This document shows, piece after piece, positions 8,964 through 25,983 of a stretch of 64,000 nucleotides of DNA. The DNA is taken from NCBI RefSeq assembly GCF_000412695.1, contig NC_021499.1, forward strand, positions 1,302,001 through 1,366,000, in the 5' to 3' direction. A model generated the notes under the pieces. It saw only the letters and a list, made by a program, of their open reading frames with translations, searched no databases and was not told where the DNA came from. Origin of the DNA: Pseudomonas resinovorans NBRC 106553 (GTDB lineage: Bacteria; Pseudomonadota; Gammaproteobacteria; Pseudomonadales; Pseudomonadaceae). Positions within the stretch are counted from its first letter, which is position 1, and each line of letters starts with the position of its first letter. Made by a program: the position numbers and the translations under genes.

Positions 8964-10094
8964 TCAACCCAGGGTCGCCACGCTGCGCAGGATCAGCCGC
9001 ACCAGCATGGTCTGCCGCGTCACCCCGGTCTTGGAGAAGGTCGAGCGCAGGTGCGCGCGGGCGGTGTTGCGGCTGATGCCGAGGGCGTCGGAGGCTTCGT
9101 CCAGGGTCAGGCCGTTGGCCAGCAGCATCGCCAGCTGGGCTTCGGCCGGGGTGAGATCGAACAGCGCCTTGACGATCTCCTGGGGCGCGCTGGACTCCTG
9201 CTCAGGATCGCTGATGAAGATCACCACCGAGGGGCACTGCTTGCCTTCGTTCCAGGCCGACAGCGGCACCGAGCGCACGATGATCCCGAGGTCGGCCTTG
9301 CCCGAGGGCCGTTGTACCCGCAGCGCCTCCACCACCGAGGGCAGGTTGTTCTTCTGCGATTGCAGGGCCTGTTTCACCAGGCGGCGGAATTCCTGGGTAT
9401 CCCGTGGATTGCCCACCTGCAGGCCTTCGTTGACCAGCTTCAGGCCGTCCTTGTCCTGCAGCAGGCGCTCGGCCACGCGGTTGGTCTGCAGCACCTTGCC
9501 GTCCTCGTCGAGGATGATGGTGCCCACCGCCAGCTGATCCACCGCGCCGGCGTAGAGGTTGCGCTCGGTCTCGATGCGGTTCAGCTGGGTGTGGATCTGG
9601 ATGGAGCGTTCCAGGTGCGGGATGAACTGCGCCACCAGCGCCTTGTCGTCTGCGGTGAACTCCGCGTCCTCGCGGCCACGGCTGACGCGGATGCGGCACT
9701 GGGCGCCGTCGCTGGTGCGGATGTCCGCACCGAGGATGTGGAACACCCCCACCGGCTCCAGGAAGCTCTTGAAAAACTCCGACTCCTCCCAGTCCACGCG
9801 CGAAAGGAATTCGCTATTGGTGACCACCTGCCGGTTGGGCAGGCCGACGAAGGGGTCGAGGGCGAAGAAGTGCTTGTTGTAGGAGGCCGTCACCTCGGAG
9901 GAGCTGCCCGTGGTGTTGACCATCAGGCCTTCGGAGTGCTCGCTCGGCGGGCGCAGGATGAAGGTGACGTACTTGCTTTGCAGGTACTGGTTCAATTGGT
10001 TGAGGAAGGTTGCCCAGGGAATGTCTTCTAGCGGCCCCTGATAGAGGTTGCCGAGCATCCCGCTGAATTCGTCGAGCGTGAGTTCGTGTGCCAT
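8964..10094 (-). CDS. LuxR-type transcriptional regulator
   Basis: 376-residue regulator. The C-terminal LuxR helix-turn-helix is at about residues 305-370 (LTPAEAQLAMLLANGLTLDEASDALGISRNTARAHL). The long N-terminal region lacks the acyl-homoserine-lactone binding signature and resembles a PAS-like sensor with a segment near TIILDEDGKVLQTNRVAERLL. The steroid regulator TeiR of Comamonas is also a LuxR-type protein of similar size. With a KshA-like gene directly upstream on the same strand (109 bases away), this protein is the likely regulator of the catabolic block. The effector is unknown. Confidence 0.85.
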   Translation of the reverse strand: MAHELTLDEFSGMLGNLYQGPLEDIPWATFLNQLNQYLQSKYVTFILRPPSEHSEGLMVNTTGSSSEVTASYNKHFFALDPFVGLPNRQVVTNSEFLSRVDWEESEFFKSFLEPVGVFHILGADIRTSDGAQCRIRVSRGREDAEFTADDKALVAQFIPHLERSIQIHTQLNRIETERNLYAGAVDQLAVGTIILDEDGKVLQTNRVAERLLQDKDGLKLVNEGLQVGNPRDTQEFRRLVKQALQSQKNNLPSVVEALRVQRPSGKADLGIIVRSVPLSAWNEGKQCPSVVIFISDPEQESSAPQEIVKALFDLTPAEAQLAMLLANGLTLDEASDALGISRNTARAHLRSTFSKTGVTRQTMLVRLILRSVATLG

Positions 10095-10203
10095 GTCTGA
10101 ACCACATTGTTATTTTTGTAGGGTGCTTCTTACCGACTAAGCGGCGGATTCAGCAAGGCCGATCGTCCCCTTTGTTCGTAAGACGACCGGCGGCCTGAGC
10201 CGA

Positions 10204-11250
10204 TCAGGCGGTTTCGACGATATCCAGGACGACGTAGGAGCGGGCCTCGGCCAGCGCGGCCGGGAGTTCGGCGACGTCGGTGTAGAACTGCTCGTACCAC
10301 TTGCGCAGCTGGTAGACCGGGCCATCGCCGTCGCACAGCAGCGGGTTGTCCACGCGGGTCTTGCTGTGCCAGATGGCCACGTCCTCATAGAAGGCGGCCT
10401 GGGCCTGGGCCACGTAGGCGCGCGCCATCTCGCGGTTCTGTTCGTCGGTCAGGCCGGGAACCTTCTTCACCAGCACGCCGTAGCGCAGGGTGAAGCTGTG
10501 GAGGTCGATGGGCACGTGGCAGTTGAGCAGGATCGAGTGGATGGACACGCCGTCCATGGCACCGGTCATCTCGGTGATCTGATAGGCCGGGCCATAGTAG
10601 GTGGCCACCGTGGTCAACTCGCTGTCGCCGGACAGCCGCGCGCTGCTGCCGCGCATCACCTGCACCGCCATGTGCCGCTCGAAGGTGTTGCTGAAGTGGT
10701 TGAGGTCGGTGCCGTGCACGGCGTCGAAGTGCGCCATGTCCGAGATGTTGTCGATCAGCTCGCGGCAGTTGGTGTCGATCTTCAGTTCCGCCACTTCCCA
10801 GTCCGCCCAGTCGTCGCTGAAGCAGGCGTCGATGCGCGGGATGGCCTGCTCCTCGATCGGCGCGTTGCCTTCCGGGTCGTTCCAGACGAACAGCAGCTGG
10901 TTCTGTTCCGACACCGGCCAGGACTTGATCTTCGCCCGGGGCGGAATGCGTTTGGCGTAGGGGATGTCGTCGCAGACCCCGTCGGCGCGCCAGCGCCATT
11001 CATGGAAGGGGCAGCGGATGGCGTCGCCCTCGACGCAACCCTGGCTGAGGTCGGCGCCCATGTGCGGGCAGAAGCCGTCGAGGATACGGATCTGCCCGTC
11101 CTCGCCGGCGAAGGCCACCAGGCGGGTGCCGAATACGTCCAGGCGGTGGGCCTTGCCATCGCGGTACTGCTCGGCCAGTCCCAGGCAGTGCCAGCCACGG
11201 GCGAAGCGGGGTTCCAGCTGCCGGGCTTCGATGCGGTGCAGGGTGCTCAT
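10204..11250 (-). CDS. Rieske non-heme iron oxygenase, KshA-like (3-ketosteroid 9-alpha-hydroxylase family)
   Basis: Terminal oxygenase of 348 residues. The Rieske [2Fe-2S] ligands are Cys61, His63, Cys80 and His83 (CPHM and CPFH). The mononuclear iron site is the DMAHFDAVHG segment with Asp171, His174 and His179. The C-terminal stretch IWHSKTRVDNPLLCDGDGPV is typical of KshA-type enzymes. KshA hydroxylates C9 of 3-ketosteroids with electrons from a separate reductase. No reductase gene (KshB) lies nearby. The substrate may be a steroid or another polycyclic terpenoid. The gene is divergent from the SDR operon and shares its promoter region. Confidence 0.85.
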   Translation of the reverse strand: MSTLHRIEARQLEPRFARGWHCLGLAEQYRDGKAHRLDVFGTRLVAFAGEDGQIRILDGFCPHMGADLSQGCVEGDAIRCPFHEWRWRADGVCDDIPYAKRIPPRAKIKSWPVSEQNQLLFVWNDPEGNAPIEEQAIPRIDACFSDDWADWEVAELKIDTNCRELIDNISDMAHFDAVHGTDLNHFSNTFERHMAVQVMRGSSARLSGDSELTTVATYYGPAYQITEMTGAMDGVSIHSILLNCHVPIDLHSFTLRYGVLVKKVPGLTDEQNREMARAYVAQAQAAFYEDVAIWHSKTRVDNPLLCDGDGPVYQLRKWYEQFYTDVAELPAALAEARSYVVLDIVETA

Positions 11251-11345
11251 TTTCTTGTTCTCCCATCAGGTTATCGATGGCCGCCGCCATGCGCAGCGCT
11301 GCGGCTCTTGCACTCGGAGGATTCTGCGGTGCCTGCATTTCCCGG

Positions 11346-11365
11346 CATCGTCTGATCGGACGATG
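11346..11365. promoter_or_regulatory. Candidate operator: 20-bp near-perfect palindrome between KshA-like and SDR genes
   Basis: CATCGTCTGATCGGACGATG has 9 of 10 bases matching between half-sites. It lies 61 bases before the SDR start and 95 bases before the KshA-like start. The same half-site occurs as an inverted pair in the divergent promoter at 22192-22260. Function as a regulator site is inferred. Confidence 0.55.
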
Positions 11366-11426
11366 GCCGCGCCCGGCGCCAGGCTTTTACTGGCGACAAC
11401 AAGAACAAGCCGGATGGACAATCTGC

Positions 11427-12266
11427 ATGCGAATCGAACGAGGCCTGGTGGCGGTGATTACCGGTGCGGCCGGCGGCATAGGCCACGGCCTGGCGCAAGA
11501 GGCCGGCGCGCGTGGCCTGCGCCTGGTACTGAGCGATGTGGACGGGCAGCGCCTGGCGGCCCTTGTGGATAACTTGCAAGGGCAGGGGGTGGAAGTCGCC
11601 GGCCTGGCCGCCGACGTCGGCGACCCGGCGCAACTGGACGCCCTGCGCGACCTGGCCGTACAGCGCTTTGGCGGCGTCGACCTGCTGTTCAACAACGCCG
11701 GGGTGATGCAGACCGGTTTCAGCTGGGAGATCGATGCGGCACGCTGGCAAAGCCTGCTGGCCATCAACCTGGGCGGCGTGATCAACGGCATCCGCAGCTT
11801 CATGCCGCTGCTGCTCGGCCAGCAGCGCCCGGCCCAGGTGATCAACACCGCGTCCCTCGCCGGACTGGTCTGCAGCCCCATGCTCGGTCCCTACACCGTC
11901 AGCAAGCAGGCGGTGGTGGCCCTGTCAGAAACCCTGCATTACGAACTGGCCGCCTTGCAGTCACAGGTTAGCGCGGCGGTGCTTTGCCCGGGCCCCGTGG
12001 CCAGCGAAATCATGGCCTCCAACCAGGCCTCCAACCAGGCCTCCAACCAGGCCGCCGGCGAGGCCACCGGACAACTCGATGCCCTGCTCGACAGCAGCAT
12101 CCGCCAGGGCATGGACCCGCGCGCGCTGGCCTGCGAAGTCTTCGCCGGCATCGAGGCCGGGCGCTTCTGGCTGCTGCCCCACAAGAACTTCAAACCGGCG
12201 CTGGAACGGCGCCTGAACAGCATTCTCGAGGAGACCAACCCGGTCTTCGAGATGGCCGACGCCTAA
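11427..12266 (+). CDS. Short-chain dehydrogenase/reductase
   Basis: NAD(P)-dependent oxidoreductase of 279 residues. The cofactor motif is TGAAGGIGHG near residues 13-22, followed by NNAG and the catalytic YTVSK. The likely role is oxidation or reduction of a hydroxyl/keto group of the cluster substrate. The start at ATG 11427 (MRIERGLVAVITG) places the Rossmann motif at the usual distance; the ribosome site is weak. The coding sequence contains a 12-bp tandem repeat giving ASNQ repeats near residues 197-208, an unusual insertion for the family. It is the first gene of a plus-strand operon, with 10 bases to the next gene. Confidence 0.87.
   Translation: MRIERGLVAVITGAAGGIGHGLAQEAGARGLRLVLSDVDGQRLAALVDNLQGQGVEVAGLAADVGDPAQLDALRDLAVQRFGGVDLLFNNAGVMQTGFSWEIDAARWQSLLAINLGGVINGIRSFMPLLLGQQRPAQVINTASLAGLVCSPMLGPYTVSKQAVVALSETLHYELAALQSQVSAAVLCPGPVASEIMASNQASNQASNQAAGEATGQLDALLDSSIRQGMDPRALACEVFAGIEAGRFWLLPHKNFKPALERRLNSILEETNPVFEMADA
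12015..12050 (+). repeat. Tandem 12-bp repeat inside the SDR gene
   Basis: GCCTCCAACCAG occurs three times in a row and encodes ASNQ three times, followed by an AAGEATG linker. Because the unit is a multiple of three, changes in copy number keep the frame. Confidence 0.9.
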
Positions 12267-12276
12267 GGAGCCCAGG

Positions 12277-13203
12277 ATGTCCCTCGACCCGCAGATCGCC
12301 GCCGTGCTCCAGCAGTTCAGCCAGGCGCCGGAGCCGGATTACGACCAGCTCGATCCCCAGCAGTACCGCCATTTCTGCGACAACCTCATGCCGCCGCTGC
12401 CCGGCGAGCGCCTGTTCGAGGTGCGCAACCTGCGCCTGGCCGGCGCCGAGGGCGAGCTCGACGCGCGCCTCTATCGTCCGGAGGATCGTGACGACCTGCC
12501 CCTGCTGGTGTTCTTCCACGGTGGCGGCTTCGTCATCGGCACCCTCGATACCCACGACAACCTGTGCCGCAGCCTCGCCCGCCTGAGCCAGGCGGTGGTC
12601 GTCTCGGTGGCTTACCGGCTGGCACCGGAGCAGCCCTTCCCGGCCGCGCCCCTGGACTGCTACCAGGCCACCTGCGACCTGGTGGCGCGCGCCGGGGAAC
12701 TCGGCTTCGACGCCAGCCGCCTGGCCGTGGCCGGCGACAGCGCCGGGGGCAACCTGGCCATCGCGGTGGGGCGCCTGGCCCGACTGAACAAGGGCCCGCA
12801 TATCGCTTACCAGTGCCTGTTCTACCCTTGCACCGACGCCGGCTGCGACAGCGCCTCACACGAGGCCTTCGCCGAGGGCTACCTGCTCAGCCGCGAACAG
12901 ATGCGCTGGTTCTGGCGCCAGTACCTGCCGCAGCCCGCGCTGGCCGGCGACGCCCTGGCGTCGCCCTTGCGCGCAGAGGACCTGGCCGGCTCGCCGCCCA
13001 CCACCCTGGTCAGCGCCGAGTACGACCCCCTGCGCGACGAGGGCGAGGCCTTCGCCCGGCGCCTGCAGGAGGCCGGGGTGCCGGTCCGCCTGGAGCGCGC
13101 CGACGGCATGATCCATGGCTTCGTCAGCATGGCTGCCTTCGTCGGCAAGGCCCAGGCCGTGCTGGAGTCCGCCGCCGCCGACCTGCGTCGGGCATTGAAC
13201 TGA
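12277..13203 (+). CDS. Alpha/beta hydrolase, hormone-sensitive-lipase type
   Basis: Esterase/lipase of 308 residues. The oxyanion-hole motif is FFHGGGFVIG near residue 83, and the nucleophile motif is GDSAGG near residue 155. The later Asp (SAEYDPLRDE) and His (MIHGF) complete the triad. HSL-type enzymes hydrolyse short or bulky esters and lactones. In this operon it probably de-esterifies the substrate or opens a lactone made by the oxidative enzymes. It sits 10 bases after the SDR and 11 bases before the RibB-like gene. Confidence 0.9.
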   Translation: MSLDPQIAAVLQQFSQAPEPDYDQLDPQQYRHFCDNLMPPLPGERLFEVRNLRLAGAEGELDARLYRPEDRDDLPLLVFFHGGGFVIGTLDTHDNLCRSLARLSQAVVVSVAYRLAPEQPFPAAPLDCYQATCDLVARAGELGFDASRLAVAGDSAGGNLAIAVGRLARLNKGPHIAYQCLFYPCTDAGCDSASHEAFAEGYLLSREQMRWFWRQYLPQPALAGDALASPLRAEDLAGSPPTTLVSAEYDPLRDEGEAFARRLQEAGVPVRLERADGMIHGFVSMAAFVGKAQAVLESAAADLRRALN

Positions 13204-13214
13204 AAGGAGCGCTC

Positions 13215-14306
13215 ATGGACACCCCGCAACGACTGATCGAGGCCATGGCTTGTGGCGCCATGCTGGTGATCACCGACGACGAGGCCGATGGCGAGGGCTC
13301 GTTGCTGATCGCCGCCGGCCACGCCGATGCCGCCGCCATCAATTTCATGGCCCGCGAAGCACGCGGGTTGATCTGCCTGGCGCTGACCGAGGCGCGATGC
13401 CAGGCCCTGGGCCTGGAACTCATGGTGCCCCACTCGCGGGCCCGCCACGGCATGGGCTTCACCCTCTCCATCGAGGCTCGCAGCGGGGTGTCCACCGGCA
13501 TCTCCGCCGCCGACCGCGCGCGCACCATCGCCGTCGCGGTGGACCCGGCCAGCGGCCCGGCGGACCTGGTGCAACCCGGCCACATCTTTCCCCTGCGCGC
13601 CCAGCCCGGTGGCGTGATGCAGCGGGCCGGCCATGTGGAAGCGGCCTGCGACCTCGCGCGCCTGGCCGGGTTGATGCCCGCCGCCGTGCTGGTGGGCATT
13701 CTCGACGAAGATGGCGAGCCGGCCCGTGGCCAGGCCCTGCGGGACTTCGCCCAGCGCCATGGCCTGGCACTGGGCAGCGTGGCCGACCTGATCCACTACC
13801 GCATCCTGCACGAAGGCACCATCCGTCGTTCCGGCGAATACCCCCTGCGTACCCGGCACGGCGAGTTCCGCGTCATCACCTACCTGGACGACTACCAGGG
13901 GCAACTGCACCTGGCCCTGCTGCGCGGCGAAATCCGTCGCGACCAGCCCGCCCTCGTGCGGGTTCAGGCGGCGGAAACCCTGCGGGACCTGCTGGACAGC
14001 CATCCGGGTCAATGGAATCTTGATCGCTCCCTGGCACGGGTGGCGGAGGAGGGCGCCGGCGTGGTCGTGCTGCTGGCCCAGCAGGAGACCCCGGCGGCGC
14101 TGATCGAACAACTCCAGCAGGGCGCGCAGAAGCCGCGTCCGCCGAGCTTCCCCCAGCGCACCCTGGGAATCGGCGCGCAGATCCTGCGTGATGTCGGCGT
14201 GCGCCGGATGCGCCTGCTGAGTTTTCCCGTGAGCTACAAGGCGGTGTCCGGCTTCGAGTTGGAAGTCGCCGAATTCATTCCCTTCGACGCAGCGGAACCC
14301 GCATGA
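13215..14306 (+). CDS. RibB/RibA-like (RibBX-type) protein with altered catalytic loop
   Basis: 363-residue paralogue of the bifunctional DHBP synthase/GTP cyclohydrolase II. The N-terminal domain keeps TGISAADRA, PGHIFPL and AGHVEAACDL. Its acidic loop reads DDEADGEGS (residues 21-29) instead of DDEDRENEGD: one residue is missing and the Arg, Asn and final Asp are lost. The C-terminal RibA-like half has no Cys for the zinc site, so cyclohydrolase activity is unlikely. It sits inside a catabolic operon and overlaps the next gene by ATGA. It may support flavin supply for the neighbouring flavoenzymes or have a new role. An ATG at 13215 with AAGGAG before it fixes the start. Confidence 0.82.
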   Translation: MDTPQRLIEAMACGAMLVITDDEADGEGSLLIAAGHADAAAINFMAREARGLICLALTEARCQALGLELMVPHSRARHGMGFTLSIEARSGVSTGISAADRARTIAVAVDPASGPADLVQPGHIFPLRAQPGGVMQRAGHVEAACDLARLAGLMPAAVLVGILDEDGEPARGQALRDFAQRHGLALGSVADLIHYRILHEGTIRRSGEYPLRTRHGEFRVITYLDDYQGQLHLALLRGEIRRDQPALVRVQAAETLRDLLDSHPGQWNLDRSLARVAEEGAGVVVLLAQQETPAALIEQLQQGAQKPRPPSFPQRTLGIGAQILRDVGVRRMRLLSFPVSYKAVSGFELEVAEFIPFDAAEPA

Positions 14307-15514: not shown

Positions 15515-15663
15515 CGGCAGGCCTTGCCGAGTCGCGTCGGTAACTCATTACATGGCGTCATGAATGATGTGTGCGCCGGCGTATTTTTCCGCGCGGCGCA
15601 AGGCCCTAGATTGACCTCCACTTAGCTCCCTTCATGTCGAGGGGAGTACAGAGGAGAGTCGAC

Positions 15664-15876
15664 ATGCCCTTCGTCAGCGTGCGCATTACCCGCGATGGTG
15701 TCACCCGGGAGCAGAAAGCCCAGGTGATCGCCGAAATCACCGAGACCCTCGAGCGCGTTCTCAACAAGCGCCCGGAGCTGACCCACATCGTGATCGAGGA
15801 AGTCGACACCGATAATTGGGGGTATGCCGGGATGACTACCACCGAATATCGACGACAGCTTGCGGAGGAGAAGTAG
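15664..15876 (+). CDS. 4-oxalocrotonate tautomerase family protein
   Basis: 70-residue tautomerase. After Met removal it begins with the catalytic Pro (PFVSVRITRDG). The THIVIEEVDTDNWGYAG region matches the family. It probably moves a keto/enol double bond. A ribosome site (GAGGAG) precedes the ATG. It lies 150 bases after the Old Yellow Enzyme gene on the same strand and may belong to the same pathway, but has its own leader. Confidence 0.85.
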   Translation: MPFVSVRITRDGVTREQKAQVIAEITETLERVLNKRPELTHIVIEEVDTDNWGYAGMTTTEYRRQLAEEK

Positions 15877-16226: not shown

Positions 16227-16246
16227 CAGTTCGTAGCTCGTAACTT

Positions 16247-16485: not shown

Positions 16486-17475
16486 TCACGGCTTGAGGCC
16501 GTTCAGCATCAGCTTCGCTTGGGCCTGCACCAGGGGCGAGGCGGTGTAGTTGCCGTCGATGGGGGTGATCACCGCCTTGCCCAGGGAGAGCTGGTAGGCG
16601 TCGCCCTGTTTCTGCAGGGCGGTGGGTGCAGGCGGTGCGACCAGGTTCATGCGCACCACGCCATCGGCGCCTTGCTGCGGGGCGAAGACCACGTTGCCCC
16701 AGTCGCTGATGGGGGCGAAGGCCACGCCTTTCACCTCGCCCGACTCCAGCGCCGGGTAGTTGATGTTCAGCCCGGTAACCCCCGGCAGGCCGATCACGTT
16801 GATCTCGCAATGGGGCTTGGCCTTGCCGCGGCTCTTGGCGCACAGCTTGCGCGCCTGAGCGCCTACGGCTGCGGCGCGGTCGATCACGCGGACGGCGAAG
16901 CGTGCGGTGTCGTCCATGGCATTGAGGGTCTTCTGAGCGCCGGCCGCCGGGTTCTGGGCGATCAGTTGCAGGTCGATGGCGGTGGAGATGGCCACCGCCG
17001 GCACGCCCTTGAACATGGCGCGCACGGCTGCGTTCACCGTGCCGGACATCTGCGTCAGCGGGCCGACGTTGTCGCCGAAGTTGGTGCCGGAAACCACCAG
17101 GTCCGGGCGATTGTCCTTGAGCAGCAGGTCGAGGCCGACGTTCACCGCGTCCACCGGAGTACCGATGGCCGAGGTCTTGCCTGCCGGCGGGGTGTAGCCG
17201 GGGGGCGGGCCGACGCAGTACTTGTCCTGGGCCAGCTGGGTGATGGCGACCGCCTGGCCGGGCACCACCACGCTGGCGGCACCGATGCCGCTGCTGTCGT
17301 TCTGCGGGCCCACCAGGGTCACCTGGTGGCCGGCGGCGAGCAGGGCCTGGTAGACGGCGTCGATGCCGGGGGCGCGGCAGCCGTCGTCGTTGGTCAGGAG
17401 GATGTTCAGGGCACTGGCCTGCAGGGACAGGCCAAGGGCGGCCAGGCCGATACCGGCACGGAGCAGCATTGTCAT
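16486..17475 (-). CDS. SurE-like 5'/3'-nucleotidase with signal peptide
   Basis: 329-residue SurE-family phosphatase. A signal peptide (residues 1-22, ending ASA) precedes LNILLTNDDG, the metal-binding NDD motif that normally starts SurE. Further family motifs are NDSSGIGAA, VSGTNFGDNVG and STAI. Classical SurE is cytoplasmic and has no leader, so this version is expected in the periplasm, releasing phosphate from nucleotides or other monoesters. The ATG at 17475 is chosen because it gives the full leader; 17469 is an alternative. A longer upstream reading exists but adds no recognisable sequence. A terminator follows. Confidence 0.88.
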   Translation of the reverse strand: MTMLLRAGIGLAALGLSLQASALNILLTNDDGCRAPGIDAVYQALLAAGHQVTLVGPQNDSSGIGAASVVVPGQAVAITQLAQDKYCVGPPPGYTPPAGKTSAIGTPVDAVNVGLDLLLKDNRPDLVVSGTNFGDNVGPLTQMSGTVNAAVRAMFKGVPAVAISTAIDLQLIAQNPAAGAQKTLNAMDDTARFAVRVIDRAAAVGAQARKLCAKSRGKAKPHCEINVIGLPGVTGLNINYPALESGEVKGVAFAPISDWGNVVFAPQQGADGVVRMNLVAPPAPTALQKQGDAYQLSLGKAVITPIDGNYTASPLVQAQAKLMLNGLKP

Positions 17476-17653: not shown

Positions 17654-19003
17654 TCAATCCACCCGCCGCACGGGCGGCATCCTGAACGTGCCGGCGAGTA
17701 CGTCCCGTGCGGGGATGTAGGCGCGCACGAAGAGCTGGAAGGGCTGGCCATCGGCGGGCGTCGGTAGCCAGTTGCCCGGCCGCTCCGCCGGTTGCTCCGG
17801 CTGGATGAACAGGTCGAGGCTGCCATCCGCGTTGGGCACAAGGCCGGTGCGGCTGCCCAGGTGGTGGCGGTTCAACGGGTTGGGGTAGAGAAACTGTCCG
17901 TCTTGCGCGGCGGTATAGAGACTGACCGACCAGAAGGCCTCGGACGGAACACCGCCCGCCGGCAGATGCAGGCGGTAGCGGCCGTCACCGCGCAGCGGTT
18001 GGCCGTGCTCGTCGCGCAGGGTGATCCAGTAGTTGGCCTCTTCGCGGCGCAGACCGAGCATGCCCATGCCGATGGCCAGGGCGTAGGCGCGCTGGGTGAA
18101 GTCCCGTTGCCGGTCGGTGCCCAGCAGGTTGCCGGGCGGGCTGTAGTCGATCCAGCCATTGGCCGCGCCCATCTTCAGGTAGGCCTGCATGAAGCCGGCC
18201 TGCAGCTTCGGCAGGGCGCCGCGCCAGGCCTGCTTCTGGGCTTCCGGCAGCGCCTCCCAGCTGCAAGCGCTGCCGCAGATACCCACGCGGGCGAAGCGTT
18301 CGAGCAGCGGCGCCTGGTCCGCTGGCGGCGGGTCGAGGGCGAGCATCTGGTTGACCACCTGCAGGTAGCGCTCGGCGTCATCGCGCAGGGGTTGCGGGCG
18401 AGTCGGGGCCGGTGCGGCCGCCTGTGCCAGGACGATGCGGAAGCCGTCCTGCACGCCGTGGGCCGCCGCCAGGTCGGCCTGGCCGTCCACCAGCACCCGC
18501 AGGTTCAGGTACAGGTCGTTGGTGGGCGCGCGCACCAGCCGGGTGCCGGCTGGCGCATCGCCCCTCCAGTCGGGCCCGACCAGCCAGAGCGCTTGCGCGG
18601 CGGTGCCGGTGGCGCGGGTGCCGGCGTAGAAGAAGGTGTTGCTGTAGAAATCGATCAGCGTCAGCACGTAGTAGCGCTTGCCGGTGTCCGGCGTATGCAG
18701 GGTGACGGGCCCGTTGGCCAGGTCGATCCAGGCGGTGGAGTAGAGCGCGTCGACGATCGGCGAGTTGGCCCAGCGATCGGCGGAGGTGGTGATGGCGCGG
18801 GAATGGGCGAAGCGGTTGACCTCGGTGGCGGTACGCGCGCCCGGGTCGTTGAGGGCGGTCCAGCGGTAGTCGGAAAGCTTGTAGAGCGGATAGCTGTAGT
18901 GGAAGGCCTCGCGGATCAGGTCCTGCTCCGTGTCGGCGGCCTGGGCCGTGACGCCCAGCAGGCAGAGCGAGAGGGCGAGTGCGGTGCGGCGAAGGGAGGG
19001 CAT
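17654..19003 (-). CDS. DUF1254/DUF1214 domain exported protein
   Basis: 449-residue periplasmic protein with a signal peptide ending QAADT at about residue 22. The N-terminal DUF1254 region contains REAFHYSYPLYKLSDYRW and YYVLTLIDFYSNTF. The C-terminal DUF1214 contains AGGVPSEAFWSVSLYTAAQDGQ. These domains often occur together in proteins of unknown biochemical function. It lies about 100 bases downstream of the DUF1329 gene and is probably transcribed with the DUF1302/DUF1329 pair. It has no Cys lipobox and is probably soluble in the periplasm. Confidence 0.85.
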   Translation of the reverse strand: MPSLRRTALALSLCLLGVTAQAADTEQDLIREAFHYSYPLYKLSDYRWTALNDPGARTATEVNRFAHSRAITTSADRWANSPIVDALYSTAWIDLANGPVTLHTPDTGKRYYVLTLIDFYSNTFFYAGTRATGTAAQALWLVGPDWRGDAPAGTRLVRAPTNDLYLNLRVLVDGQADLAAAHGVQDGFRIVLAQAAAPAPTRPQPLRDDAERYLQVVNQMLALDPPPADQAPLLERFARVGICGSACSWEALPEAQKQAWRGALPKLQAGFMQAYLKMGAANGWIDYSPPGNLLGTDRQRDFTQRAYALAIGMGMLGLRREEANYWITLRDEHGQPLRGDGRYRLHLPAGGVPSEAFWSVSLYTAAQDGQFLYPNPLNRHHLGSRTGLVPNADGSLDLFIQPEQPAERPGNWLPTPADGQPFQLFVRAYIPARDVLAGTFRMPPVRRVD

Positions 19004-19102
19004 GCGGGGCTCCGGATCAGGGCATGGATCAGGTGGTGTCGAGGCGTCGCGGTTCGCGAAGAAGGCGCGTGCCAGCGACGGGCGCTGGCACGGCGGCTGT
19101 AC

Positions 19103-20485
19103 TCAGCGGGTGCCGAGCTTGCGCAGGTAGCCGGGGGAGAACTCCTCCTGCGCCCACTGGCTGGCGTTGAGCAGCGCGGGTTTCTGCCCGTCGAGCAGGC
19201 GGTCCACCAGGTAGGAGCCGGCGATCAGGTCCTGGTAGATGCCCAGGCGCGCATGGAAGCGCTTGATGTCGTAGGCGTAGATCGAGGTCTGCATGTTGGT
19301 GCGCCACAGCTGGCCACGGGCGTCGTAGTTGTCCGCCATCACCGCCGCCCAGCTGTCCTCGTCTATGTACATCACGCGCTTGGCGTAGATATGCCGCGAG
19401 CCGGGTTTCAGCGTCGCCTCCAGGACCCACACGCGGTGCTTCTCGTAGCGCATCAGGTCCGGGTTCACGTGGCCGGTGGTGGCGAGGATCTGTTCGGTGG
19501 TGACCTTGGGTTCGTCGATCAGGTAGTTGTTGTACGGGATGTACAGCTCGCGCTTGCCGACGATCTTCCAGTCGTAGCGGTCAGGGGACCCGTTGAACAG
19601 GCGGTCCTCGTCGTAGGTGCGGAAGCCGCCGGCGCCGGTGGGGGAGTCGTAGCCCACGGTGGGCGCGCGGCGCACGCGGCGTTGGCCGGGCGCGTACTGC
19701 CAGGCCTGGCGTGGCTGGCTGAAGGCGTTGATGAACTCCTGGCCGGCGACGATCTCGCCTTTCTTACGCACCGGTTCCAGGTTGGTGATCATGAAGTTGG
19801 AAAGGATGCCGGCGGAGTCGCCGAGGGTCCGCGCCGGGTCCGACCAGACCGAGAAGATCTTGTAGTTGACCTTGTCGATGGTGCGGTTGCCGTCCGGGTA
19901 GATCACCGCCTGTATGTAGTTGGCCTCCTCGGTGCGTGCGCGGCCCTGCATGGTGTGGTTGAACAGCAACTCGGCACCGTTCTGCGGGATCGGGAAGGGC
20001 GAGGCGCCCCAGGCGTTGTGGGCTTCGTTGCCGCCACCGGCCAGTTCGGCGGTGGTGGCGTTCTTGCGGATGAACTCCTCGGTCACCTCATCGACGCGGA
20101 AATCGCGGTGGCTCGGATACACCGGGATCCGGAAGGTTTTCCCGTAGCGCTTGAGCAGTGCCTTCTGGCCGTCGCTGAGGTTGTCGGCGTACTGCTCCAT
20201 GTTTTCCGCGGTAATGGTGAACAGCGGCTTTTCATCGGCATAGGGGTCCGGGTAGGGCGTGCCGGCGCCGGCGAACTTCACATGGGGCGGGGTGCCGCTC
20301 CACTTGCCGCTCCAGGCGGGGATGCTGCCGTCGGCGTTGCCGGCCTTTTCGGCGCCCAGCGGGGTGAGGTCCTGGCCGAGGCGGGCGAGTTCTGCGTCGC
20401 TGATCTTGGCCTGGGCCACCAGGCAGCTGCCGAGCAGGGCGATGGCCAATGCCGAACGCATCAGGTTGGGCTTGATCGTGTTCAT
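19103..20485 (-). CDS. DUF1329 periplasmic protein
   Basis: 460-residue exported protein with a signal peptide ending in VAQA near residue 26. DUF1329 proteins resemble LolB/LolA-like lipid-binding folds and nearly always sit next to a DUF1302 outer-membrane gene. Such pairs occur in pathways for hydrophobic compounds. Typical features here are the GNADGSIPAW segment and conserved aromatic blocks (YDWKIVGKRELYIPYNNY, RYEKHRVWVLEATLK). Only 20 bases separate it from the DUF1302 gene upstream, so both are in one transcript. Confidence 0.88.
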   Translation of the reverse strand: MNTIKPNLMRSALAIALLGSCLVAQAKISDAELARLGQDLTPLGAEKAGNADGSIPAWSGKWSGTPPHVKFAGAGTPYPDPYADEKPLFTITAENMEQYADNLSDGQKALLKRYGKTFRIPVYPSHRDFRVDEVTEEFIRKNATTAELAGGGNEAHNAWGASPFPIPQNGAELLFNHTMQGRARTEEANYIQAVIYPDGNRTIDKVNYKIFSVWSDPARTLGDSAGILSNFMITNLEPVRKKGEIVAGQEFINAFSQPRQAWQYAPGQRRVRRAPTVGYDSPTGAGGFRTYDEDRLFNGSPDRYDWKIVGKRELYIPYNNYLIDEPKVTTEQILATTGHVNPDLMRYEKHRVWVLEATLKPGSRHIYAKRVMYIDEDSWAAVMADNYDARGQLWRTNMQTSIYAYDIKRFHARLGIYQDLIAGSYLVDRLLDGQKPALLNASQWAQEEFSPGYLRKLGTR

Positions 20486-20505
20486 GCGAAATTCCTCCAG
20501 CGTGC

Positions 20506-22089
20506 TCAGAAGCGGTACTTGAAGTTGAGGGCGACGTTGTCGCGGTCGGCCAAGGGGCTGTTGTTGGCGTTGCCGAGATAGGCGTTGTAGAGGGTCTCGA
20601 CGGTGAAGTTGTTGAGGTAGCGCCAGGTGGTGCCGACGCTCATGCGGTTGTCGTGGGCGCCGTTGGCGATCAGGCCGTTGATGGCGCTGTCGCCATGGGC
20701 GGCGACGCTCAGGGTGAGGGGTACGGACATGTCCCAGCCGTCGAACACGTTGTTGTAGTCGAGGGTCGCCTGGGCGGTGAAACCCCAGGCGTCGCGGTCG
20801 TAGACCAGGCTGTCGGTGCCGGGCAGGGTGAAGCCGGGGAACAGGGTGACCGGCTCGGAGGCGTCGTTGTCGAGGACGTGGAGGTAGACCACCTCGCCCA
20901 CCAGGGTCAGGTTGTCGGTGAAGCCGGTGGGGCCCACCACGTGCACCACGGACAACTGGGATTGCAGGGTCTCGGCGCGCACCGAGCTGGAGAAGCCGTT
21001 GTCCACCATCACCGGCTGGCCATCGCGGTAGCTGACCTCGCCGGCGATGCTGGTTTCGCCGAGCACGGTGGCGAAGCTCGCGCCGTACTGGTCGATGTTG
21101 TCGAAGTAGCGGACGCGGTAGAAGCCGAGGTCGCTCTGGAAGTCCAGGGTCGGGGCCTTGTCGTGGTAGCGCGAGTAGTACAGGCCGAACTCGGTGCCGT
21201 TGAGCAGGTCCGACGCGTAGGTCAGCGCCACGCCGTACTGGCCGCTGTCGCTGGGCTTGTCATCGGCCAGGCGGCGCACGGTGCCGCTGAAGTCGTTGAA
21301 GCCGCCTTCGTCGATCAGGTCGGTGGTGGAGAAGTAGCTGCCGACGCCGAACAGCTCGGTCTTGTCCCACTCGTATTGCACGTAGGTCTGCAGGTTGAGG
21401 CTTTCGGTCAGGTTGTACTGGGCGAACACCTGGCCCACCGGCAGCAGGATCTCCTTGACCTCCACACCCGGAGTGGTCGCCTTGGTCGCGTCCACCGGGC
21501 TCTGCGCGGCGGAAATGCCCGGGTAGAACATGCTCTCGCCCCAGCTCACCACCTGGTCGCCGACCCGCAGGTTGAGGCTGCGGTCGGCGACGGTCCAGTT
21601 GCCGTAGGCGTAGGCGTCGAGCAGGCGCAGGTCTTCGCGATGCTGGTCGATGGTGTCCTGGGGGAAGCGGTCGGGCCGCGAGCAGTGGCCGCCGGCGAAG
21701 CAGTTGGAGGTGCCGGTGCCGTTGTCGTTGCCCTGGTCGTAGACGTTGTCGTAGTAGCCGGCGCCGCGCACGAAGACGCCGTAGTCCTCACGCCACTTCA
21801 GGTTGGCCTCGCTGACGAAGCCGATGCGGTTGTTGATCAGGCTGCCCTTGTCGAAGGCGTTGTTGCCATCGTTGCCGTTGGCATCGGCCACCAGCTTGTG
21901 GTCGCGATCCTCGACACGCCAGGCCAGGCTGTAGCTGAGGGTCGTATCCCAGTCGATGGTCAGGTCGGGGGTGGGCGTGAAACTCATGGCCTGGCTCTGC
22001 GTGGCCAGCCCGCCCAGCAGGCCCACGAAGGCGAGGTGAATGGCTCTCTCGAGTGATTGTTCAGTGTTGCCGCTTCTTATTTTTATCAT
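20506..22089 (-). CDS. DUF1302 outer-membrane protein
   Basis: 527-residue predicted beta-barrel. Export leader at residues 1-35 (hydrophobic LAFVGLLGGLATQSQA), then alternating strands and a C-terminal Phe (NVALNFKYRF), the usual BAM targeting signal. The start ATG at 22089 follows a GAGGG ribosome site; an upstream in-frame ATG at 22194 would place the leader internally and is rejected. The role is likely a porin or uptake channel for a hydrophobic substrate together with the DUF1329 protein. It is divergent from the KstD-like gene and shares a promoter region with candidate operator half-sites. Confidence 0.88.
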   Translation of the reverse strand: MIKIRSGNTEQSLERAIHLAFVGLLGGLATQSQAMSFTPTPDLTIDWDTTLSYSLAWRVEDRDHKLVADANGNDGNNAFDKGSLINNRIGFVSEANLKWREDYGVFVRGAGYYDNVYDQGNDNGTGTSNCFAGGHCSRPDRFPQDTIDQHREDLRLLDAYAYGNWTVADRSLNLRVGDQVVSWGESMFYPGISAAQSPVDATKATTPGVEVKEILLPVGQVFAQYNLTESLNLQTYVQYEWDKTELFGVGSYFSTTDLIDEGGFNDFSGTVRRLADDKPSDSGQYGVALTYASDLLNGTEFGLYYSRYHDKAPTLDFQSDLGFYRVRYFDNIDQYGASFATVLGETSIAGEVSYRDGQPVMVDNGFSSSVRAETLQSQLSVVHVVGPTGFTDNLTLVGEVVYLHVLDNDASEPVTLFPGFTLPGTDSLVYDRDAWGFTAQATLDYNNVFDGWDMSVPLTLSVAAHGDSAINGLIANGAHDNRMSVGTTWRYLNNFTVETLYNAYLGNANNSPLADRDNVALNFKYRF

Positions 22090-22191
22090 CGGTTCCCTCT
22101 CCGGGGCGTTGTGGCGCAGCCGCACGCGGACCACACCTGAGGTGTTCGTTGAATGAGGCGGCCTGACTATGTGGTCACCGGCAGCGGTCAA

Positions 22192-22260
22192 CATCGTCCG
22201 AAAAGACTAAGCGGCTCGGACGGCCGGAACGCTCGCCGGCGCTAGTCCCAACGGACGATG
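22192..22260. promoter_or_regulatory. Candidate operator: inverted CATCGTCCGA half-sites between DUF1302 and KstD-like genes
   Basis: CATCGTCCGA is at 22192-22201 and its near-complement CGGACGATG at 22252-22260. The nearest site is 67 bases before the KstD-like start; the other is about 102 bases before the DUF1302 start. The same word forms the palindrome at 11346-11365 at almost the same distances from its flanking genes. Confidence 0.5.
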
Positions 22261-22327
22261 CCGGTGGCGCTCGGGGCTGCCGAGAATCCGGCTGGATTGC
22301 GCATTCAGAACAACAAGGAGCGATCCA

Positions 22328-24097
22328 ATGAGCGCGAACGGCCTGCAATGGGATGAGAGCTGCGACGTACTGGTGGTGGGTTCCGGAGCCGGCGCCATGA
22401 CCGCCGCCCTGCGTGCCCGCGACCTGGGCTCCGAGGTGCTGGTGGTGGAGAAGAGCGACCGCTACGGCGGTACCTCGGCGGTGTCCGGCGGCGGTATCTG
22501 GGTTCCCTGCAACCACCGCATCGAGGCCCTTGGCGGGCATGATTCGGCCGAGGAGGCCATCGCCTACATCCGCGCGGTGACCCGGGGCGAAATCGACGAC
22601 GGCCGCATCGAGGCCTACGTCGAGCAGGGCCATCGGGTGGTGCGTTACCTGGAGCAATGTTCCCGGGTGCGCTTCGAGGCGCAGCCGCGTTACGCGGACT
22701 ACTACCCGGAAGTGCCTGGCGGCAAGCCGGGCTTCCGTTCCATGGACCCGCTGCCGTTCGACGCGCGCCTGCTGGGCGATGAATTCGCGCGGATGCGCGA
22801 GCCGTCGCCCGGCACCCTGATGATGGGGCGGATGACCATGACCATGGCCGAGGCCCAGGTGCTCCTCTGCCGTGGCCCCGGTTGGCTGGGGCTGACCCTG
22901 AAGATTCTCTGGCGCTACTGGCGCGACCTGCCCGGTCGCCTGCGCAGCCGGCGCGACCGTTTCCTCACCCTGGGCAATGCCCTGGTGGGGGCGCTGCGCC
23001 GCTCGCTGATGGAACGGGATGTGCCGCTCTGGCTGAACTGCCAGCTGCAGCGCCTGATCGAGGAAGACGGCCGGGTGGTGGGTGCCGAACTGCTGCGCGA
23101 AGGGCGCACGTTGCGGGTCCGCGCCCGCCGAGGCGTGGTGCTGGGCGCTGGTGGTTTCGAGCGTAACCAGGCCATGCGCAGCCAGTACCATCCACAGCCG
23201 TCGCGCAGCGACTGGAGCGCCACACCGCCCTTCAACACCGGCGACGCCATCCGCGCCGGCCAGGCCCTCGGCGCCGCCACCGCGTTGATGGACCACAGCT
23301 GGTGGGCGCCGACCACCCATGTGCAAGGCGAGGAGAAGCAACGCGCGCTGTTCGTCGAACGCACGCTGCCCGGCTGCATCATGGTGAACTCGATTGGCGA
23401 GCGCTTCGTCAACGAGGCGGCGCCCTACACCGATATCGTCTACGCCATGTACGACAACAACCGCGAGGGCGCCAGCAGCGTGCCCTGCTGGCTGGTGTTC
23501 GACGCCGAGTTCCGCCGCAAGTACCCCTGCGGCGCACTGCTGCCCGGCTATGCCATGCCCGACAGCCGCTTGCCCGCGCGTCTGCATGGCTACTTCCACA
23601 AGGCCGACAGCCTGCTGGAGCTGGCCGGTCGGATAGGCGTCGACCCGGCCGGGCTGCTGCGCACCGTCGAGCGCTTCAACCTCATGGCCGAAGCTGGCCG
23701 GGACGAGGATTTCCACAAGGGCGAGTCGCTCTTCGACCGCTACTACGGCGACCCTACCGTGACGCCCAACCCCTGTCTGGCGCCGTTGCTCAAGGCACCC
23801 TTCTACGCGGTGAAGGTGGACGCCGGGGACATCGGCACCAAGGGTGGCCTGCTCACCGATGTGCATGCCCGCGTATTGCGGGAAGACGGCAGCCCCATCG
23901 CCGGCCTCTACGCCATCGGCAACAGCGCCGCCTCGATGATGGGCCGCACCTATCCGGGGGCGGGTTCCACCATCGGCCCGGCCATGGTGTTCGGCTTCCT
24001 CGCCGCTGGGCATATCCACGCTGAGAAGTCCGGCGCCGATGGTGCGCATGACTCTGCCGGACGACGTGCGCAACCCCTCTCAAGGAGCATCCCATGA
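22328..24097 (+). CDS. FAD-dependent 3-ketosteroid-delta-1-dehydrogenase-like (KstD-like) flavoprotein
   Basis: 589-residue flavoprotein. The FAD motif GSGAG is at residues 18-22, followed by VVEKSDRYGGTSAVSGGGIW. The C-terminal TYPGAGSTIG (Tyr near 541) matches the KstD active-site strand that carries the catalytic Tyr and Gly. The family includes KstD, KsdD and fumarate-reductase-like enzymes that introduce or reduce double bonds beside a keto group. The role is probably 1,2-desaturation of a cyclic ketone in the pathway that uses the KshA-like oxygenase. It starts at ATG 22328 after AAGGAG and overlaps the next gene by ATGA. Confidence 0.88.
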   Translation: MSANGLQWDESCDVLVVGSGAGAMTAALRARDLGSEVLVVEKSDRYGGTSAVSGGGIWVPCNHRIEALGGHDSAEEAIAYIRAVTRGEIDDGRIEAYVEQGHRVVRYLEQCSRVRFEAQPRYADYYPEVPGGKPGFRSMDPLPFDARLLGDEFARMREPSPGTLMMGRMTMTMAEAQVLLCRGPGWLGLTLKILWRYWRDLPGRLRSRRDRFLTLGNALVGALRRSLMERDVPLWLNCQLQRLIEEDGRVVGAELLREGRTLRVRARRGVVLGAGGFERNQAMRSQYHPQPSRSDWSATPPFNTGDAIRAGQALGAATALMDHSWWAPTTHVQGEEKQRALFVERTLPGCIMVNSIGERFVNEAAPYTDIVYAMYDNNREGASSVPCWLVFDAEFRRKYPCGALLPGYAMPDSRLPARLHGYFHKADSLLELAGRIGVDPAGLLRTVERFNLMAEAGRDEDFHKGESLFDRYYGDPTVTPNPCLAPLLKAPFYAVKVDAGDIGTKGGLLTDVHARVLREDGSPIAGLYAIGNSAASMMGRTYPGAGSTIGPAMVFGFLAAGHIHAEKSGADGAHDSAGRRAQPLSRSIP

Positions 24098-24972
24098 CAA
24101 CCCGTAATCCCCGTATCGCCCTGGTCACCGGCGCCAGTCGCGGCGTCGGCAAGGGCATCGCCATCGCCCTGGGCGCCGCCGGCATGACCGTCTACCTCAG
24201 CGGCCGTTCCAGCACCGAGAGTGCCAGCCGACTGCGTGGGCAATTGCTGCCGGGCAGTCTCGCGGAAACCGCCGAAGCGGTGACCTGCGCTGGCGGAAAG
24301 GGCATCGCCGTGCCCTGTGACCATCGAGATGATGAGCAGGTGCGCGAACTCTTCGCCCGCATCGAGCGTGAGCAAGGGCGTCTCGACCTGCTGGTGAACA
24401 ACGCCGCCTTCCTCCACGAGAACCTGATCGATCCGGGGCCTTTCTGGGAGAAACCCCTGGAGCTGGTGGACATCCTCGATGTCGGCCTGCGCTCGGCCTA
24501 TGTCGCCAGCTACCATGCGGCGCCGCTGCTGGTGCGCAATGGCCAGGGCCTGATCGCCTTCGTCTCGTCCTACGGGGCCGGCTGTTACATGCACGGCCCG
24601 GCCTACGGCGCGCAGAAAGCGGGTGTGGATAAGTTCGCGGCGGACATGGCGGTGGATCTCGAAGGCACGGGCGTCAGCGCGGTGTCGTTGTGGCTGGGGC
24701 CGCAGCGTACCGAGCGCACGGCCATTGCCGGAGCGGAACGGGCCGACCAGTACGAGGCCTTCCTGGCCATGGCGGAAACCCCGGAATTCAACGGCCGGGT
24801 GATCCACGCCCTGTTGGACGATCCGCAGTTGTCCACGCTATCCGGGCAGACGTTGGTGACCGCCGAGCTGGCCGAGGGCTACGGCATCAGCGAAGCCGAA
24901 GGCCGCCAGCCGCCAAGCTACCGCGAGATGCTCGGCGCACCTCGGCAGCAACACCCGGCGCGGGTGATCTGA
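24094..24972 (+). CDS. Short-chain dehydrogenase/reductase (second, longer)
   Basis: 292-residue SDR. The cofactor motif is TGASRGVGKG near residues 11-20, NNAA follows, and the active site is SSYGAG with YGAQK. It is closer to the classical SDR with a long C-terminal tail (QPPSYREMLGAPRQQHPARVI). The likely reaction is NAD(P)H-dependent reduction of a keto group or oxidation of the alcohol. The start ATG overlaps the KstD-like stop, so it is translationally coupled to that gene and probably acts in the same step set. Confidence 0.88.
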   Translation: MTTRNPRIALVTGASRGVGKGIAIALGAAGMTVYLSGRSSTESASRLRGQLLPGSLAETAEAVTCAGGKGIAVPCDHRDDEQVRELFARIEREQGRLDLLVNNAAFLHENLIDPGPFWEKPLELVDILDVGLRSAYVASYHAAPLLVRNGQGLIAFVSSYGAGCYMHGPAYGAQKAGVDKFAADMAVDLEGTGVSAVSLWLGPQRTERTAIAGAERADQYEAFLAMAETPEFNGRVIHALLDDPQLSTLSGQTLVTAELAEGYGISEAEGRQPPSYREMLGAPRQQHPARVI

Positions 24973-24973
24973 G

Positions 24974-24996
24974 GCAGCCCGGATGAAATCCGGGGA
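24974..24996. repeat. Solo GCCCGGATGAAATCCGGG palindrome (REP family C)
   Basis: The arms CCCGGAT and ATCCGGG flank a short centre. It sits between the convergent SDR and GlxA-type genes. A longer version is at 37867-37923. Confidence 0.7.
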
Positions 24997-25023
24997 GAAC
25001 CCTCGGCAATGGCGCTGGACGGC

Positions 25024-25983
25024 TCAGCCCGCGCGCAGCTCGCGAATGCCCTTGCCCAGGCGCTTGCGCAACAGGGTGCGCAGGGTCACGCCGTCGGCGT
25101 AGCCCACCTCGGTGGCGATCTGCTCGACGCTGCGGTCGCCGGTTTTCAACAGGTGCACGGCACGCTCGATGCGCAGGTCCTGGACGTAGGCCAGCGGTGT
25201 CTTGCCCAGTACTTCATGGATACGCCGGGCCAGGGTGCGCTTGCTGGTGGCCAGCTCGGCCGCCGCCGCGTCCAGGTTGAAGCCCTCGGCCAGGCGTTCG
25301 CGAACCCAGCGGTCGAAGCGCTGCACCAGCGGGTCGGCATGGGCCAGGTGATCGGACAGGGCGTAGGCCGATTGCGAGGGGCGCGCGTCGACTATCAGGT
25401 AGCGCGCCACCAGCGCGGCCAGTTCCGGACTGGTCTGGCGGATCAGCCAGAGGGTCAGGTCCAGGTGACTCAAGGCAGCGCCGGCGGTCACCAGCTGCCC
25501 AGCGCTGACAATCATGCGCCCGGCATCCAGCCGCACCTGTGGATAACGCTGCCGGAACAGCGGCGTCAGCCACCAGGTGGTGGTGGCTTCGTGGCCATCG
25601 AGCAGGCCGCTCTCGGCCAACACGAAGGTGCCGATGCAGGCGGCGGCGATGCGTGCGCCGTCCTCCGCCCAGCCGCGCAGGGCGATGACGGCGTCGGCCA
25701 CGTCCGGGCGGGCCAGGGCCTGCTGCAACGGCTCGGGCATCTTGTAGCCCATGGCGGGCACTATCACCCAGTCCGGCGTCGGGCAGTCCGCCAGCGGGCG
25801 CACCGGCACGCCGAAACCCTGGGCGCTGCGCACCTCAAGGCGGACACCGGCCAGGGTCACCTCGAACCGAGGGCAGGGCAGGCCGTGCAAGGCGGCCAGC
25901 TCGTTGGCGGTGGCCAGGGCGTCGAGCACGGCGGCCAGGCCGGTATCGAACACCCCTTCGAGGGCTAGGACGGTGAGCTTCAT
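25024..25983 (-). CDS. GlxA-type transcriptional regulator (DJ-1/PfpI domain plus AraC HTH)
   Basis: 319-residue regulator. The N-terminal DJ-1/PfpI amidotransferase-like domain has AACIGTFVLAESGLLDG near residues 115-131, keeping a Cys in the nucleophile-elbow region. It is followed by a C-terminal AraC double helix-turn-helix (KTPLAYVQDLRIERAVHLL, TEVGYADGVTLRTLLRKRLG). GlxA-type regulators often sense amino-acid derivatives such as glycine betaine. Here the position next to the KstD-like/SDR pair suggests control of that operon, but no ligand is evident. It is convergent with the SDR gene. Confidence 0.88.
   Translation of the reverse strand: MKLTVLALEGVFDTGLAAVLDALATANELAALHGLPCPRFEVTLAGVRLEVRSAQGFGVPVRPLADCPTPDWVIVPAMGYKMPEPLQQALARPDVADAVIALRGWAEDGARIAAACIGTFVLAESGLLDGHEATTTWWLTPLFRQRYPQVRLDAGRMIVSAGQLVTAGAALSHLDLTLWLIRQTSPELAALVARYLIVDARPSQSAYALSDHLAHADPLVQRFDRWVRERLAEGFNLDAAAAELATSKRTLARRIHEVLGKTPLAYVQDLRIERAVHLLKTGDRSVEQIATEVGYADGVTLRTLLRKRLGKGIRELRAG

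Follow-up and report, generated by a model that had tools for sequence, protein, structure and literature searches.

A 64,000-nucleotide stretch of the Pseudomonas resinovorans NBRC 106553 genome (hereafter the window; C1:1302001-1366000 of a genome made up of C1, 6,285,863 bases, and C2, 198,965 bases) carries, at window positions 8964 to 25983, a block of genes that includes a kshA and a kstD gene. We found that this block very probably supplies the A/B-ring-opening functions, along with envelope proteins and a regulator, of a canonical aerobic 9,10-seco steroid pathway whose genes are dispersed along the chromosome. We draw this conclusion from the presence of the remaining pathway genes at distant sites in the same chromosome, from their linkage to the block in one congener (G019) and from the co-occurrence of KshA and HsaC; the gene families, the completeness of the set, the congener linkage and the co-occurrence were all observed here. 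An earlier note on this DNA had taken the block for an undescribed catabolic system. That claim falls, as KshB, HsaAB, HsaC, HsaD-like, HsaEFG-like and C/D-ring genes are encoded in the same genome and the strain is a published testosterone degrader. A false lead is thus removed, and no new pathway is needed to account for the cluster.

By analogy with the known pathway, the SDRs would convert a hydroxysteroid to its 3-keto form, KstD would introduce the delta1 double bond, and KshA, together with its reductase KshB, whose gene lies at 4.82 Mb, would hydroxylate C9, upon which ring B would open non-enzymatically to give 3-HSA. Ring A would then be removed by HsaAB, HsaC, HsaD and HsaEFG, and rings C and D by IpdAB and the products of adjacent beta-oxidation genes, with the ring A and C/D functions supplied from three other chromosomal blocks. 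The gene set is like that of the 9,10-seco pathway of Comamonas testosteroni and Pseudomonas (Stutzerimonas) sp. Chol1 in comprising KstD, KshA/B, the HsaA-G families (for HsaD, an HsaD-like hydrolase), IpdAB, the C/D-ring families and a LuxR-type regulator near KshA. It differs in being split into four separate chromosomal blocks and in having additional RibBA-like, SurE-like and short Old Yellow Enzyme (OYE) genes.

Two samples were used for comparison. Loci (L numbers) come from a KshA-alignment scan of species genomes, and all counts over loci rest on the best 80 of 579 confirmed stretches; open reading frames (ORFs) in them were called by a custom script, so that their boundaries are approximate. 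Congeners (G numbers) are 18 genomes of the genus, the window genome included; KshA matches in them were accepted at E <= 1e-60, and the genomes were counted regardless of relatedness.

The missing pathway functions lie elsewhere in the chromosome

The earlier note had remarked on the lack of a KshB, an extradiol dioxygenase or any beta-oxidation gene, and for the window itself this holds in homology searches within the strain's own genome. The window gave no match to the distant-block HsaC, KshB, HsaA, HsaB, HsaD, CoA-transferase, acyl-CoA dehydrogenase or thiolase; at E 1e-5, matches between window and distant-block proteins occurred solely among related SDRs and flavoproteins. Scanning for motifs of extradiol and ferredoxin proteins recovered the strain's own HsaC and KshB and missed three HsaC-like genes found by tblastn (L056, L073 and L078), and the absence from the window therefore rests on the homology searches instead.

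The first distant block, at 1.436-1.446 Mb, carries hsaC (C1:1436455-1437348), whose product is 89% identical to the L041 copy and has 2zi8, which we take to be HsaC of M. tuberculosis, as its best solved relative (E 4.2e-71, 243 bits). Two CoA-transferase subunits come after it, then an enoyl-CoA hydratase, an NMO-type protein, a hydratase, two acyl-CoA dehydrogenases, a thiolase and an SDR. The best solved relatives of the two subunits are 6co6 (E 1.6e-75) and 6con (E 2.1e-49), presumably the IpdAB pair; the second subunit scores slightly below its Pfam cut-off. The labels EchA20, IpdC and FadA6 for genes of this block are tentative and derive from gene order and general knowledge.

The second block (1472232-1482830) encodes two acyl-CoA dehydrogenases, an SDR, a MaoC hydratase, a thiolase, two SnoaL-like proteins, a further SDR and HsaD-, HsaE-, HsaG- and HsaF-like proteins. 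The HsaD-like hydrolase (C1:1479242-1480057, equivalent to L083:1501-2316) is 82% identical to the L028 copy. About 1.1 kb upstream of this block lies an integrase-core (transposase-type) ORF (C1:1470565-1471110), possibly a trace of a rearrangement that dispersed the pathway.

The third block (4821909-4830004) encodes an AMP-binding ligase, an SDR, KshB, a second SDR, a delta4(5alpha)-dehydrogenase-like flavoprotein (4at0, E 4.7e-66), HsaB and HsaA. KshB has the domains FAD_binding_6, NAD_binding_1 and Fer2 and is the top own-genome match to Nocardia KshB (46% identity, 244 bits; the next match scores 160 bits). For HsaA the best solved relative is 2rfq, annotated "3-HSA hydroxylase, oxygenase" (E 3.1e-78), and HsaB is so named because of its flavin-reductase domain and its position beside HsaA. 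The resulting map of the dispersed pathway points to the distant KshB and HsaAB as the partners of KshA and KstD in the window.

The four blocks lie together in a congener, and KshA and HsaC co-occur

Of 41 query proteins taken from the four blocks, 38 have their match within a single 64-kb stretch of congener G019 (1254234 to about 1318200), in the order window block, HsaAB/KshB block, HsaC block, HsaD block. Three window proteins, the tautomerase, the DUF1254 protein and the AraC regulator, were not found in the G019 stretch at E 1e-10; at E 1, the tautomerase and the DUF1254 protein gave no match in G019 longer than a 28-residue fragment, and the AraC regulator gave a match of 36% across 91 residues, located outside the cluster.

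KshA is encoded in 13 of the 18 congeners and HsaC in the same 13, while HsaA was detected in 12, all of them within that set. HsaC is also present elsewhere in the genome, at 75-93% identity, in all 17 genomes that carry the Pseudomonas KshA locus described below, some of which are apparently identical to some of the 18 congeners. The distance between the KshA and HsaC genes is 123 kb in the window genome, 111-131 kb in G020, G026, G027, G028 and G029, 103 kb in G018, 88 kb in G033 and 36 kb in G019; in the remaining four KshA-bearing congeners, the two genes are on separate contigs.

The window encodes KshA and KstD family proteins

The Rieske and iron-site residues that the earlier note had assigned to KshA (C61, H63, C80, H83, H174 and H179) were confirmed and are invariant across 16 aligned KshAs. 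The window protein has the features of the family, namely a Rieske CxH..CxxH motif, a two-His iron site and a KshA_C domain. Compared with solved structures, it matches KshA proteins best (4qdc, E 1.9e-112), and the next kind of protein follows at E 1.3e-17. We built a tree of 76 rows, comprising 74 proteins from loci L003-L082 (at least 75% query cover), the window KshA and one distant Rieske protein from the same genome. The window KshA branches within a group of KshA-like proteins from Pseudomonas, Burkholderiaceae and actinobacteria, the outgroup being a single, very long branch. It sits among the Pseudomonas KshAs, in a set shared with Rhodococcus proteins whose genes lie close to one for an HsaC-like protein. 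The earlier note had named a placement of both enzymes outside the KshA and KstD clades as grounds for abandoning its proposal; for KshA, such a placement was not found. The distant Rieske protein on the long branch (C1:3127515-3128144), the second KshA_C match of the genome with 99 bits and 28% identity to the window KshA, was rejected as a KshA. The window KshA is only 55% identical to the KshA of Stutzerimonas K1 (L047).

Some congeners have a second KshA, 58-59% identical to that of the window, in another cluster (L041 and L042, KshA at about 10001-11000); in BN417 (L041), this second KshA is 8 kb from HsaC.

The KstD-type assignment stands on pairwise evidence. Its best solved relative, 7p18, is a 3-oxosteroid 1-dehydrogenase (E 1.6e-201), and the motifs DYYPEVPG at residue 124, PYTDIVYAMY at 366 and GRTYPGAG at 539 align with those of solved KstDs. 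These three motifs would hold the catalytic tyrosines and glycine known from R. erythropolis KstD1.

The core of the block is conserved in Pseudomonas

All genes named in the earlier note (KshA, KstD, two SDRs, HSL hydrolase, OYE, tautomerase, the DUF1302/DUF1329 pair and the LuxR-type regulator) are present, and the block additionally encodes a RibBA-like, a SurE-like and a DUF1254/DUF1214 protein and an AraC/DJ-1 regulator (Table 1).

Table 1. Genes of the block, with positions counted from the first nucleotide of the window
Feature	Position	Strand	Evidence
LuxR-type regulator	8964-10094	-	GerE 26.4 bits, above cut-off; PAS 22.4 bits, slightly below cut-off
KshA, oxygenase of 3-ketosteroid 9alpha-hydroxylase, 348 aa	10204-11250	-	Rieske 72 bits; KshA_C 261.3 bits
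SDR-family dehydrogenase (SDR1)	11427-12266 (ORF open from 11277)	+	adh_short 150 bits
HSL-family hydrolase	12277-13203	+	Abhydrolase_3 253 bits; NCBIfam LipP1 379 bits, above cut-off of 350
RibBA-like paralogue without DREN	13215-14306 (ORF 12564-14306)	+	DHBP_synthase 227 bits; GTP_cyclohydro2 112 bits
Short OYE, 403 aa	14303-15514	+	Oxidored_FMN 158 bits
4-Oxalocrotonate tautomerase family protein	15664-15876 (ORF 15634-15876)	+	TIGR00013 66.8 bits, above cut-off of 56.9
SurE-like protein	about 16486-17469	-	SurE 140 bits
DUF1254/DUF1214 protein	17654-19003	-	130 and 104 bits
DUF1329 envelope protein	19103-20485	-	437 bits
DUF1302 outer-membrane-type protein	20506-22026 (ORF open to 22194)	-	487 bits
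KstD, 3-ketosteroid delta1-dehydrogenase, 589 aa	22328-24097	+	Closest solved structure 7p18
Second SDR-family dehydrogenase, 4-base overlap with kstD	24094-24972	+	adh_short 99.6 bits
AraC/DJ-1 regulator at block edge	25024-25983	-	HTH_18 64 bits

The gene-neighborhood comparison that the earlier note had called for revealed that the core of the block recurs, far above chance, in 17 Pseudomonas loci (L003-L018 and L028), each taken with 10-kb flanks. The LuxR-type regulator, KshA and the HSL hydrolase are each encoded in 17/17 loci, SDR1 in 16/17, the RibBA-like protein in 13/17, and the SurE-like and DUF1329 proteins in 12/17 each. Counts were lower toward the far end of the block (DUF1302 8/17, full-length KstD 3/17 and second SDR 0/17), partly because of the 10-kb flank; the OYE was found in 7/17. 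When five congener regions were retrieved with longer flanks and searched at E 1e-15, KstD (81-89% identity), the second SDR after it (85-94%) and the SurE-like, DUF1329 and DUF1302 proteins were present in all five and the OYE in four; the DUF1254 protein, the tautomerase and the AraC regulator had no match in these regions at that threshold. On the far side of the LuxR gene, usually past a NUDIX gene, 11 of the 17 loci encode an HsaF-like aldolase, an HsaG-like acetaldehyde dehydrogenase, an HsaE-like hydratase, an HsaD-like hydrolase and an SDR, the HsaD/E/F/G-like families having been assigned by scanning one representative of each.

SDR1 is probably a hydroxysteroid dehydrogenase and the HSL hydrolase possibly a steroid-ester hydrolase, where we infer the substrates. 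The SurE-like protein is probably exported, judging by eye from a putative signal peptide. Membership of the tautomerase in the system is doubtful, and the AraC/DJ-1 regulator probably lies outside it.

The pathway reading, its substrate and the published record

Several observations weigh against the reading of the block as part of a dispersed steroid pathway. The lead of HsaC over a biphenyl dioxygenase is modest (243 versus 209.5 bits), and HsaB is the weakest of six own-genome matches to Rhodococcus HsaB (55 bits). Among solved structures, biphenyl-type hydrolases (2og1, E 8.8e-51) outrank the steroid enzyme (5jz9, E 5.1e-40) as relatives of the HsaD-like hydrolase, so that its steroid role rests on its linkage to pathway genes. 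NCBIfam offers no fitting KshA model, its sole match being 4beta-methylsterol monooxygenase at 59.5 bits, far below the cut-off of 600, and KstD scores 611 bits against its best model, 3-ketosteroid-delta-1-dehydrogenase, below the cut-off of 789. HsaA was not found in G022, a congener with KshA and HsaC, perhaps owing to a gap in the assembly or to a replacement, and HsaC was found within 10 kb of KshA in 0/17 Pseudomonas loci. Finally, Bergstrand 2016 (PMC4810484) describes a single cluster in most proteobacterial genomes with two named exceptions, P. resinovorans not being among them. Separately, the biphenyl-type likeness of the pathway-linked hydrolase raises the possibility that proteobacterial steroid hydrolases may form a branch of their own.

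Of the substrates considered in the earlier note, a steroid is upheld by the downstream 9,10-seco genes and by growth in print: P. resinovorans NBRC 106553 grows on testosterone as sole organic substrate and removes it completely, and shows neither growth nor metabolism on cholesterol or cholate (PMC4810484). A diterpenoid or other terpenoid substrate was discarded, as the 9,10-seco families that act downstream are present and are linked in G019. One alternative keeps the pathway and assumes another specific steroid as natural substrate, such as an ester, a bile-type steroid or a compound derived from a sterol; esters or side chains would then be removed by the HSL hydrolase, the short OYE and the products of the beta-oxidation genes at 1.47 Mb. 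It could draw on the presence of the HSL hydrolase in every one of the 17 loci, on the acyl-CoA dehydrogenases, MaoC hydratase and thiolase of the HsaD block and on the cysteines of the OYE, which are patterned as in a 5beta-delta4-dehydrogenase. However, the strain grew on testosterone and not on cholate or cholesterol (PMC4810484), and the known 5beta enzymes are much longer than this OYE; we consider the alternative unlikely. The earlier note had left two options, a partial transformation or the upper part of a pathway completed elsewhere, and the second is what we found; a partial transformation that is complete in itself and leaves the rings of a steroid or another polycyclic terpenoid uncleaved would suit a window that has neither a ring-cleavage nor a KshB gene, but is hardly credible given that these genes are in the genome and adjoin the block in G019 and that HsaC accompanies KshA in all 17 locus-bearing genomes and, among the 18 congeners, in precisely the 13 that have KshA.

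The pathway of this strain is already in print. Strain CA10, the subject of a genome report (PMC3735057), is NBRC 106553, and the window genome is apparently the one in which steroid genes were treated in PMC4810484 and PMC5790920, as a predicted steroid degrader growing on testosterone. A KshA/HsaC tree in Holert 2018 (PMC5790920) also names NBRC 106553 in its legend, so that, with the testosterone growth and this tree published, the pathway counts as known and is ordinary apart from one accessory protein. The four-block layout and the RibBA-like gene are not described in the available text of PMC4810484 and PMC5790920, and the four-block dispersal is a small addition to the published picture.

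A RibBA-like protein without the RibB motif accompanies KshA

The accessory protein is encoded by the RibBA-like gene, which begins 11 bases after the HSL gene and overlaps the OYE gene by 4 bases. It is present, at no less than 675 bits, in exactly those 13 of the 18 congeners that encode KshA, other RibBA matches scoring 371 bits or less. The protein is homologous to the strain's own RibBA (1514746-1515840) across both domains and over its full length, with 53% identity. A third RibBA-type protein of this genome (C1:741267-742352) is 48% identical to it.

We compared the best 120 of 7992 relatives, of which the first 69 (P0125-P0193, at least 416 bits) were assigned to the RibBA-like family and the next 51 (at most 391 bits) to the ordinary RibBAs; the dividing line was set at a score step before motifs were counted in the 120, yet after 14/14 cluster copies, some of them likely among the 69, had been seen to lack the motif. 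The RibB motif DREN is kept in 0/69 RibBA-like relatives versus 51/51 ordinary RibBAs, and the EGD aspartate in 0/69 (68 have another residue and one a gap). The acidic residues of DREN-EGD are required for DHBP synthase activity. The family largely retains TGISAADR, and the RAGH histidine is kept in 66/69 and the next glutamate in 69/69. Neither the 69 nor the 51 showed the cysteine motif of GTP cyclohydrolase, and the difference is therefore confined to the RibB half. Over six close species (15 pairs each, custom Nei-Gojobori script), the mean ratio of nonsynonymous to synonymous substitution rates (dN/dS) was 0.096 for the RibBA-like gene versus 0.104 for kshA, indicating that the gene is under purifying selection and is maintained rather than decaying.

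Judging from these residues, the RibBA-like protein is probably unable to make the flavin precursor. Tentatively, and with some doubt, we suggest that it may be a neofunctionalized DHBP synthase that has lost flavin-precursor synthesis, has kept TGISAADR and RAGH-xE, and serves Pseudomonas steroid catabolism as a dedicated accessory, either as a sensing or stabilizing partner of flavoenzymes or as a new lyase or isomerase acting on a steroid-derived intermediate. KstD, OYE and HsaAB are flavin users, which would fit a plain flavin-supply enzyme for the pathway flavoproteins, and two Nocardia loci (L068:4372-5598 and L069:6402-7634) have, at a distance of 2-4 kb from KshA, RibBA genes in which both catalytic motifs are kept and which perhaps provide a steroid-linked flavin supply. 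In R. ruber Chol-4, a DHBPS/GTP cyclohydrolase II gene is found in a catabolic cluster and was placed in a pathway of unknown substrate (PMC6498646). However, the absence of DREN from all 69 RibBA-like relatives, set against its retention in all 51 ordinary RibBAs, together with the lack of the cyclohydrolase cysteine motif in either group, makes plain flavin supply an improbable role for the window protein. A literature tie between RibBA or DHBP synthase and steroid catabolism was not found among the best-matching papers. This conserved RibBA-like accessory protein is worth a bench test.

Regulator, envelope proteins and short OYE

The earlier note had likened the LuxR-type regulator to TeiR, and the protein has the LuxR domain and is of the kind often found near KshA: a copy 76-98% identical lies beside KshA in 17/17 Pseudomonas loci, and 23 of the 63 remaining KshA loci have a LuxR-type match (36-64% identity over the best segment). 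The likeness to TeiR is one of domain and position near KshA. The Chol1 cluster contains two TeiR-like genes, and deletion of one of them delayed cholate degradation (PMC8399759), so that a LuxR-type regulator near kshA is to be expected; from its TeiR-like position, the window protein is likely an activator of the steroid genes. A tRNA-SeC called by ARAGORN at 9723-9804 falls within the LuxR gene and was judged spurious.

DUF1302 is a putative steroid-uptake channel and DUF1329 its putative uptake partner; no link to uptake appeared among the literature matches listed for DUF1302/DUF1329 and steroids.

The short OYE has a C-x2-C-x2-C-x11-C motif formed by cysteines 376, 379, 382 and 394. It shares the OYE domain with 5beta-delta4-KSTD1 and BaiCD, and its cysteines correspond to the predicted 4Fe-4S cluster of Sphingobium 5beta-delta4-KSTD1 (C375, C378, C381 and C393; PMC8044976). 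That enzyme is a protein of about 75 kDa with FAD and FMN (PMC8044976), whereas the window protein, a shorter relative, has 403 residues and scores only 153 bits against the NCBIfam BaiCD model, whose cut-off is 825. From its sequence, it is possibly a ketosteroid reductase or dehydrogenase, and both the cysteine motif and a length of 403-408 amino acids are conserved in 8/8 copies.

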